Shown here: positions 818 through 3,287 of the stretch, piece after piece
Position numbering within the stretch: position 1 is the first letter of the stretch
Layout: the number at the start of each line of letters is the position of its first letter
Source: Clostridia bacterium
GTDB taxonomy: Bacteria; Bacillota; Clostridia; Christensenellales; Borkfalkiaceae
Direction: 5' to 3'
DNA length: 64,000 bases
Assembly: GCA_017399945.1 (NCBI GenBank)
Contig: JAFQAQ010000017.1
Span: 1 to 64,000 of the forward strand
Made by a program: the position numbers and the translations under genes
Notes under the pieces: generated by a model
The model's database searches: none
What the model was told of the DNA's origin: nothing
What the model saw: the letters and a program-made list of their open reading frames with translations, nothing else

Positions 818-1639
818 ATGAAAAAGATTTTAACCTTACTTTTAACAGTAATCCTCGGCGTTGCATGTTGCTTTGGCTTTGCAGGCTGTGGTGAAAACGC
901 AACCGTAAAGATTGGTAGCCAATCGGGAACTACCGGCGCAATGTACGCTGATTGTTTGAAGGGCTGTGAAGTTTCTTATTACGATACTTTTGCTCTTGCT
1001 GCACAAGATTTGAAAAACGGTAAAGTTGAATACGTTGTAGTAGACGGCGCAACTGCACAAAGTTTGAAAAACGATATTTCAGGCTTAAAAGTTATCGATA
1101 TCGAACTCAGCTCCGAATACTATGGTATCGCAGTAGATAAGGCTCAACCTGAATTGTTATCTAGTATCAACACTATTTTAGAAAGCAAGAAGGCTGAAAT
1201 CGACGCTATTATTGAAAAATACATGAATGACGATGAAGAAAACTTCGTTCCTGTTGCTTCTGCTGTTAAAGACGAAAGCAAGGCAGCAACTCAATTAGTA
1301 GTTGCAACCAACGCAGAATTCCCTCCATTCGAATCTATTTCAGGTGACAAATACGTTGGTATAGATATTGAAATTGCAAAGATTATTGCAGACGAATTAG
1401 GTTTAGAACTCGTTATTGACAACATGCAATTCGACGCAGTAGTTCAATCAATCGGCACTCACTCGGTTGATATTGGTATGTCCGGTTTAACCATTACTGC
1501 AGAAAGAAAGAAATCCGTAAACTTTGCTAACCCATACTATATTGAATCTCAATACATTTTAACCTTGGAATCTAACACCAAGTTAGATGATTGCATGACC
1601 GTTATCGACGTTCTTAACGTATTAACTGCAAACAAGTAA
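818..1639 (+). CDS. ABC transporter substrate-binding lipoprotein with permuted SBP_bac_3 order
   Basis: A 273-residue polar amino-acid-type binding protein. The lipobox FAGC (Cys24) shows membrane anchoring after signal peptidase II. The start at 818 is chosen because an SD (AAGGAG, 804-809) precedes it and the promoter lies upstream. Order is the surprise. Residues 29-100 (KIGSQSGTTG...) match what is normally the second lobe. Residues 101-136 (YYGIAVDKAQPELL...) match the usual C-terminal return to lobe 1. Only then, at 159-250, come LVVATNAEFPPFE, GIDIEIAK and NFANPYY, which normally begin the protein. It ends at 273 where lobe 2 would normally follow. Permease and ATPase genes follow directly, so it is probably functional. 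The ligand is unknown, probably an amino acid. Confidence 0.85.
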   Translation: MKKILTLLLTVILGVACCFGFAGCGENATVKIGSQSGTTGAMYADCLKGCEVSYYDTFALAAQDLKNGKVEYVVVDGATAQSLKNDISGLKVIDIELSSEYYGIAVDKAQPELLSSINTILESKKAEIDAIIEKYMNDDEENFVPVASAVKDESKAATQLVVATNAEFPPFESISGDKYVGIDIEIAKIIADELGLELVIDNMQFDAVVQSIGTHSVDIGMSGLTITAERKKSVNFANPYYIESQYILTLESNTKLDDCMTVIDVLNVLTANK

Positions 1640-1720: not shown

Positions 1721-2428
1721 ATGATAAATTGGGCAGAAGAGTGGAGTTCGTTTTACAAGCAGTTCGTAACTCTCGGTGGATACAAAAGATTATTCGACGG
1801 TTTAATAGCAACCGTTGAAATTGCCGTATTCGGTTTGGCAATAGGTATAATAATTGGTATTCTTATAGCAATCGTAGCCGTTATGCCACGATACAAACTA
1901 TTGCCGAAGATTTTAGACAAAATATGTAAAGTATACGTAGCGATATTCCGTGGCACGCCTATGGTAGTTCAACTACTCGTAGGGCATTATTTGTTATTAC
2001 CACTATTGGGTGTAAACGTGTCGGGCGTGTTTGAAGCCGTAATCATATTCGGCTTAAATTCGGGTGCTTACGTATCGGAAATTATGCGTTCGGGAATACA
2101 ATCGGTAGATGCTGGGCAGTTAGAAGCAGGCAGAGCGCTAGGCTTATCCTTTTGGTCTGCAATGGGTAAAATAGTTATTCCACAATCCATAAAGAACATT
2201 TTACCAACTCTTGGCAACGAATTTATTTCGTTGATTAAAGAGACCTCGGTAGTTTCCTTTATTGCGATAACCGACTTAACGAAGGCGTTAAAATTAATAG
2301 GTGACGCAACCTATCATTATTTCATGCCGTATATTATGCTAGCGCTTATATACTTGGTAATCGTGTTACTCATAACTTGGGGTATAAAAGTAATGGAAAG
2401 GAGGCTTGCAAGAAGTGATAGAAAATAA
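1721..2428 (+). CDS. Amino-acid ABC transporter permease (HisM/GlnP family)
   Basis: A 235-residue inner-membrane protein with about five hydrophobic segments, including an N-terminal [17 protein letters not shown] helix. It carries the family signatures RGTPMVVQL and the cytoplasmic [28 protein letters not shown] loop that contacts the ATPase (EAA motif). It would form the transmembrane channel of the importer encoded by 818-3287. An AAGGAAG SD precedes ATG 1721. Its 3' end overlaps the ATPase start, suggesting translational coupling. Length is normal for the family. Confidence 0.93.
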
Positions 2429-3287
2429 TATTTTAGACGTTCAAAACGAAAAGGAAGTCGTAGTTAAAGTAAGGGGACTTTGCAAGTCTTTTGATAGCCT
2501 TCAAGTGTTAAAAGGAATTGATATCGACGTGTATAAAGGAGACGTTGTTGCAATCATAGGTCCGTCCGGTTGTGGTAAATCAACCTTTTTAAGATGTTTA
2601 AATTGTTTGGAAGACCCCACTAGTGGTAATATCTTTTTTGAAGGGGAAGACCTAGCAGACATGAAAGTTGACATCAACGTTCATCGTCAAAAAATGGGTA
2701 TGGTATTTCAAAATTTCAACCTGTTTAACAACCTAACGGTACTTGAAAATATCACCTTAGCACCCGTTCTCATCGCTAAGAAAAACATAGCTAAAACCAA
2801 AAGAAAAAACTTCTTTATCAAAATTGGCAACTTGTTTAGAAAAAACAAAAAACCGTTGATAAAGATAGAACAAACTTTAAAAGAAGTTAAGGAAAACGCT
2901 AAACAAAAAGCACTCGACCTACTAGCTAAGATTGGCTTGGAAGAAAAAGCTAACGTTTATCCCTCAACCCTTTCTGGTGGCCAAAAACAACGTATTGCAA
3001 TCGTTAGGGCGTTTGCAATGGACCCAAAGGTTATGTTATTTGACGAACCTACTTCGGCGCTTGATCCTGAAATGGTAGGTGAGGTTCTAGACCTTATGAA
3101 AGAACTTGCCGAAGGTGGCATGACCATGCTTGTAGTAACTCACGAAATGGGTTTTGCAAAAGAAGTTGCAAACAGGGTAATCTTTATCGATGACGGCGTT
3201 ATAAAGGAGGAGAACAATCCAAAGGAATTCTTTGGTAATCCCCAAGACGAAAGACTTAAAGATTTCCTTGCGAAAGTACTTATTTAA
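2415..3287 (+). CDS. Amino-acid ABC transporter ATP-binding protein with a basic insertion
   Basis: A GlnQ/HisP-type ATPase that powers the importer. Visible motifs are Walker [11 protein letters not shown]-loop VFQNFNLF, signature LSGGQKQR, Walker [13 protein letters not shown] and the switch His in VVTHEMGF. The start is taken as GTG 2415, 10 nt after GGAGG (2400-2404); the alternative TTG at 2406 lies only 1 nt from that SD. It overlaps the permease by 14 nt. Unusual: between the Q-loop and the signature, after [10 protein letters not shown], about 38 extra residues rich in Lys and Arg ([10 protein letters not shown]...KEVKENA) enlarge the helical subdomain that normally docks on the permease. 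The protein is about 290 residues instead of about 250. Confidence 0.92.

Follow-up and report, generated by a model that had tools for sequence, protein, structure and literature searches.

GlnH, TmArgBP (4prs) and the substrate-binding domains (SBDs) of GlnP are type II (cluster F) substrate-binding proteins (SBPs), and all of them are homologous to both halves of the SBP encoded at positions 818..1639 of the stretch analysed here, the 64,000 nucleotides at positions 1 to 64,000 of contig JAFQAQ010000017.1 from a Clostridia bacterium (assembly GCA_017399945.1; hereafter the window). The window SBP has its key ligand residues and operon partners in common with GlnH and other type II SBPs, but its segment order is rotated and lobe 2, not lobe 1, would carry its anchor. 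In GlnP-type systems the SBDs are fused to the permease, whereas the window SBP is a separate, predicted lipoprotein; some relatives do join permuted SBDs to the permease in one chain, and in others the chain takes in the ATPase as well. The N-terminal part of the solved GlnP SBDs among the matches listed matches the C-terminal half of the window SBP, as the canonical order implies.

A natural circular permutation has been described for Tp0684 (TpMglB-2) of Treponema pallidum, a lipoprotein SBP of an ATP-binding cassette (ABC) importer; its relatives are reported to lie mostly in treponemes and Gram-positive bacteria, and its authors suggest tethering as one possible reason for the permutation (PMC4990184). 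Tp0684 has the type I (cluster B) sugar-binding fold, and a fourth hinge crossing results from its permutation (PMC4990184). The window SBP is of type II, and its rotation neither adds nor cuts a crossing. The window SBP also falls outside Type Ic, the Tp0684-like group, as its matches are type II amino-acid SBPs. In the open full-text literature Tp0684 was the only natural permuted SBP found and no permuted type II SBP was found, which is weak evidence of absence, most subscription papers lying outside this scope.

Segment order of the binding protein encoded at 818..1639

Three segments are distinguished here, the N-part of lobe 1 (L1N), lobe 2 (L2) and the C-part of lobe 1 (L1C), which follow one another as L1N-L2-L1C in canonical proteins and as L2-L1C-L1N in the window SBP (type B). 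Judged from its sequence, which establishes the order together with its conservation, gene context and recurrence, the window SBP is a type II (SBP_bac_3) binding protein in a naturally occurring, circularly permuted form, and the proposal of the first-pass annotation that it is an intact, operon-borne and naturally permuted SBP is supported by swapped domains, same-order kin, a predicted model, the operon, the ligand residues and single segment copies. The features are the following (HMM, hidden Markov model; AF2, AlphaFold2; PAAT, polar amino acid uptake transporter).

818..1639, + strand: SBP gene, 273 amino acids, in the order lobe 2, lobe 1 C-part, lobe 1 N-part (type B)
818..889, + strand: signal peptide with lipobox-like FAGC, Cys24 at 887-889 (predicted by eye from the sequence)
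905..1075, + strand: L2 segment, lobe 2, beginning at strand KIGSQSGTTG (segment HMM; phmmer)
1082..1222, + strand: L1C segment, final lobe-2 strand, hinge 2 and return part of lobe 1 (segment HMM)
1109..1123, + strand: putative hinge 2, residues 98-102, equivalent to GlnH 181-185, within the chain (GlnH alignment)
1223..1291, + strand: ring-closing linker from the old C-terminus to the old N-terminus (segment bounds; linker comparison)
1292..1576, + strand: L1N segment, LVVATNAEFPPFE..., lobe 1 N-part, hinge 1 and first lobe-2 strand (phmmer; segment HMM)
1535..1549, + strand: putative hinge 1, residues 240-244, equivalent to GlnH 85-89, within the chain (GlnH alignment)
1577..1636, + strand: C-terminal lobe-2 helix (TKLDDCMTVIDVLNVLTANK; AF2 model, GlnH alignment, type comparison)
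1721..2428, + strand: PAAT-type permease (BPD_transp_1)
2415..3287, + strand: GlnQ-like ATPase (ABC_tran); open reading frame (ORF) listed from TTG 2406, GTG 2415 taken as start

The window SBP matches 87 distinct sequences of solved structures at E 0.001 (phmmer), and all three aligned matches, drawn from the 60 of 87 listed, consist of two domains in swapped order. Specifically, residues 152-250 align with residues 3-102 of the 4prs chain (independent E-value 1.7e-19) and residues 32-137 with residues 120-226 (9.5e-13), so that homology to type II SBPs extends across both lobes and the lobe-2 half precedes the start of lobe 1, as previously noted. In line with this, a six-frame scan of the whole 64-kb window with segment HMMs seeded with the window SBP and its kin finds L2, L1C and L1N once each, in this order and all within the 818-1639 ORF; the same segments are thus present, each once, cyclically rotated. 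The scan finds no second lobe-2 copy in the 64 kb, and a concealed extra lobe downstream, raised earlier as one finding that could overturn the permutation, is thereby ruled out within the window. Pfam SBP_bac_3 (PF00497) covers only residues 160-254, and lobe 2 is assigned by phmmer and the segment HMMs instead.

The hinges of GlnH, which we take to be residues 85-89 and 181-185, align with residues 240-244 and 98-102 of the window SBP, respectively, so that both hinge strands lie within the chain; this mapping applies to the window SBP, and the other types described below were placed by segment order and sequence reading. The mature protein begins with a lobe-2 strand, and its C-terminus (residue 273) lies about 29 residues beyond hinge 1, after one lobe-2 strand and one helix. 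The chain therefore ends inside lobe 2 rather than exactly at the hinge, where the first-pass annotation had put its end, and the break lies in a lobe-2 loop. Additionally, Arg R75 and Asp D157 of GlnH, presumably the residues holding the amino acid, correspond to R230 and D76 of the window SBP. The permease and ATPase genes, said earlier to be intact, follow on the same strand.

Taken together, we estimate a probability of roughly 0.9 that the product of this gene is circularly permuted and serves, anchored by a lipid, as the amino-acid-binding subunit of a PAAT-type ABC importer with a single permease. In such a protein, a linker of about 23 residues would connect the old termini in lobe 1, and the opening of the ring would fall in a lobe-2 loop, giving L2, L1C, the linker and then L1N with the first lobe-2 strand and helix. 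Lobe 1 would become a continuous inserted lobe, and lobe 2 a discontinuous lobe bearing the anchor if Cys24 is lipidated. Since neither the hinge strands nor the key Arg and Asp have been lost, the permuted SBP, presumably expressed, would be expected to shut around an amino acid in the usual Venus-flytrap manner and pass this ligand to the permease for transport.

Structure prediction, which had been recommended as a check, yields a confident best AF2 model (predicted local distance difference test score, pLDDT, 89; predicted template modelling score, pTM, 0.80), and structural comparison was made with order-bound aligners only. Several observations pull the other way. The remaining four AF2 models reach pLDDT 83.7, 67.7, 58.7 and 52.8 on a shallow input alignment; the query-normalised template modelling score does not exceed 0.45 among the 50 Foldseek matches listed, from an order-bound aligner; and a Pfam search with just the N-terminal half finds nothing at E 0.01. 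Two ligand contacts have also drifted among the relatives: the position of GlnH G68 is Gly in 46/62 type B proteins (Ala in 15) versus 52/56 canonical ones, and that of T118 is Thr in 99/116 proteins of the second rotated order, type A (Gln in 14), versus 55/56 canonical ones.

Spread, cut sites and conservation among relatives

The scale of permutation among relatives had escaped the first-pass annotation. Within the window's genus, four further genomes carry a full-length match of the same order (51-55% identity), and the genus also holds type A (L1C-L1N-L2), the canonical order and an order resembling type C, which is cut midway through lobe 2. Hits to a profile built on the L1C-linker-L1N junction (A1), tallied by eye from the result tables, span this junction in at least 52/201 genomes of the family (138 bits or more), at least 67/396 of the order (143 bits or more) and at least 58/391 of the class (148 bits or more). 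These sets overlap and each includes the window's genome, and the counts are lower bounds, as lower-scoring spanning hits exist (e.g. L143, type A). Segment order was checked for all counted spanning hits except those of G163, G513 and G1221, and every one so checked is A or B, L129 with a stray weak additional L1N match. Across the phylum, 28/398 genomes matched at a cut-off of E 1e-33, and outside the class the junction was spanned within a single-SBP ORF only in G657, G673 and G860, the class of G657 comprising 3 genomes only. A homology search of genome contigs gave two relatives, L003 (canonical) and L004 (L1N only by HMM, canonical by eye); the search of viral contigs with the query P0001 or the canonical alignment A2 found no relative. 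The fetched loci yielded 247 unique proteins, namely 116 A, 62 B, 56 canonical and 13 others (two of type C), proportions that are no measure of prevalence, the loci having been fetched mainly for a spanning junction.

These sequences show at least four cut sites, all in lobe 2 by segment order, which leaves both hinge strands uncut. Type A is cut ahead of the last lobe-2 strand. A subtype of B, B', comprises 24 of 59 unfused B proteins, which end 0-4 residues past the L1N model and keep an N-terminal helix, (S)xxDLxGK; relative to B', the window's type B has 18-34 extra C-terminal residues, helix included, an end that the B protein L075 lacks. Type C is represented by L160 and L168, in whose family (f110, L274-L283), outside the window's class, 10/19 genomes, query included, match at 64-100% identity, two of the ten matches being interrupted by contig ends. 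Separately, L145 and L147 of a second SBP subfamily read by eye as type C, and L145 is counted within the 62 B proteins. Going by HMM bounds, the linkers of the type A proteins L240 and L249-L254 are roughly 60 residues long, and some of these proteins carry Asp/Gly-rich YDxxGDG motifs vaguely reminiscent of calcium-binding loops.

A chain so rearranged might not fold alone as a rotated SBP: its halves could pair between two molecules, or it could be the decayed remnant of a tandem SBP, as would fit the absence of a Pfam match in its N-terminal half and the two-unit arrays of some relatives, which could shed fragments. We regard this as very unlikely, because all three segments are present once each, the best single-chain model is confident, and ligand residues and operon are retained. 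The key Arg is found in 56/56 canonical, 114/116 A and 62/62 B proteins and the key Asp in 56/56, 115/116 and 62/62, and a permease lies within 700 bp downstream in 58/58 B, 108/109 A and 50/53 canonical loci with enough flank. The two halves coevolve to much the same extent whatever the type (Mantel r 0.79-0.82, against a maximum of 0.14 after shuffling). An artefact of assembly or gene calling is barely conceivable: the window's genome is a draft of 29 contigs, but the 116 A and 62 B unique proteins stem from many separate assemblies, some of them single-contig genomes (e.g. G1145, L184), and IMG/VR contig L261 has the same order as the window SBP with a permease-like ORF behind it. Same-order kin in the genus and permutants from many assemblies in practice rule out assembly error.

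Number of origins and routes between the orders

For tree building the segments were rearranged to canonical order (206 columns). The 234-row tree omits the 13/247 unique proteins with a segment string outside the three main ones; the 51-row tree omits the long-branch rows L145, L259, L020, L143 and L031 and rows more than 55% identical to a retained row of the same state. The former (FastTree) contains 19 state changes and the latter (IQ-TREE) 15, against a shuffled mean of 23.8. One clade of four in the 51-row tree (100/95) unites a B, an A and two canonical proteins, and in the 234-row tree the window SBP lies in an all-B group of 9 (99*) within a mixed clade of 32 (B 25, A 4, canonical 3; 97*). 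Approximately unbiased (AU) tests, under one model and 206 columns, reject a single clade for A (p 9e-46), B (p 4e-51) and canonical proteins (p 6e-6), and with it one origin for each order.

That a single permutation event lies behind all of this, the mixed tree reflecting the short alignment and the canonical proteins among permutants being misplaced, strikes us as unlikely, albeit less so than the two alternatives above. The alignment is short and many forks are open; in the thinned 51-row tree canonical proteins need 12 changes against a shuffled mean of 14.5 (as low in 47/500 shuffles) and A proteins 12 against 16.4 (as low in 12/500); in one clade the data tolerate a position of the canonical pair L142/L227 outside the 28 A proteins (AU p 0.41); and by eye the A and B linkers of the window's large clade look related, sharing SAxxDxSKxQLVV. 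Against it stand the AU rejections, the starred branches of the 51-row tree, which force at least 6 (A), 3 (B) and 7 (canonical) changes, the dissimilar look of linkers in other clades and the differing cut sites (B versus B'; C).

Several type A linkers, such as SFFDGTATFEYTNPASKEG and KYFKGVGEKVGYTITTTDV, are partly letter-for-letter identical to the C-terminal tails of the canonical proteins L142, L227, L022 and L023, and no such tail was seen by eye in the other 52/56 canonical proteins. A linker equal to a canonical tail is the junction expected from head-to-tail fusion. These four proteins would be either reversions or keepers of the ancestral tail. Reversion of L142/L227 cannot be demonstrated, as holding together the 28 A proteins of their clade is not rejected (AU p 0.41). 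In the clade with L022/L023, holding together its 8 A proteins is rejected (p 0.002), leaving room for either reversion or parallel permutation, and holding L022 and L023 together is not (p 0.13).

In the window's large clade, the likeness of the A to the B linkers suggests that the ring may have closed once and then been re-cut. Because, in addition, the A protein L063 groups in two trees (92/92; 97/94) with B proteins akin to the window SBP, the window's order might conceivably derive from an already permuted L1C-L1N-L2 ancestor instead of directly from a canonical one. This step hinges on the choice of tree, since another tree pairs L063 with canonical L229 (98/92) and the window SBP with the A protein L114 (91/82), and these placements count against it.

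The earlier explanation by tandem duplication and trimming of the outer halves gains indirect support from the linker-tail match and from two-unit arrays of shifted phase, and we would extend it by a possible A-order ancestor: the gene would have arisen by head-to-tail duplication followed by trimming, possibly via the A order. Longer versions among relatives, which had been suggested as a check, were found. L262, L263 and L267 carry L2-L1C-L1N twice, fused to the permease, L262 and L263 continuing into the ATPase in one chain; L264-L266 and L268 carry a single permuted unit fused to the permease (weak L2 and L1C parts read by eye in all seven); and L166 is a canonical double unit. In L269, two canonical SBP genes stand in tandem, possible raw material for permutation.

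More tentatively, we propose that type II SBPs of this lineage may re-wire repeatedly and reversibly, with rings closing in lobe 1 and reopening in at least four lobe-2 loops while hinges are never cut. Some canonical proteins would then be reversions whose C-terminal tail is a retained half of the old linker, and the anchor would move between lobes, which may tune docking on the homodimeric permease.

Implications and neighbouring genes

Natural circular permutations are usually regarded as single, old events. Here, close relatives in one widespread family, members of a single genus among them, differ in having the canonical order or one of several rotated ones, and these relatives keep operon partners and key ligand residues across orders. 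Close relatives of differing order make the duplication-fusion-trimming path, its reversibility and the cut rule (lobe 2, not hinge) directly testable, and recurrent rotation at several chain sites offers a natural test of protein re-wiring without breakage. Permuted SBPs are also natural templates for SBP-based sensors, and they carry a warning that order-bound models such as Pfam's may detect just half of a permuted protein.

The window's genome (G000, 93% complete) encodes two SBP_bac_3 proteins (PF00497, E 0.001), and both are permuted; the second, at L273:1153-1998 (G000:C4), is of type A and belongs to a different subfamily. Permease-like and ATPase-like ORFs lie downstream of it. In the window operon, the ATPase at 2415-3287 contains a Lys-rich insert of about 40 amino acids, around residues 113-156, which splits its match to GlnQ models; the L008 relative is 74% identical to this ATPase, with a match running through the insert. 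Upstream of the operon, positions 135-614 of the minus strand encode an Amidase_6 domain protein.
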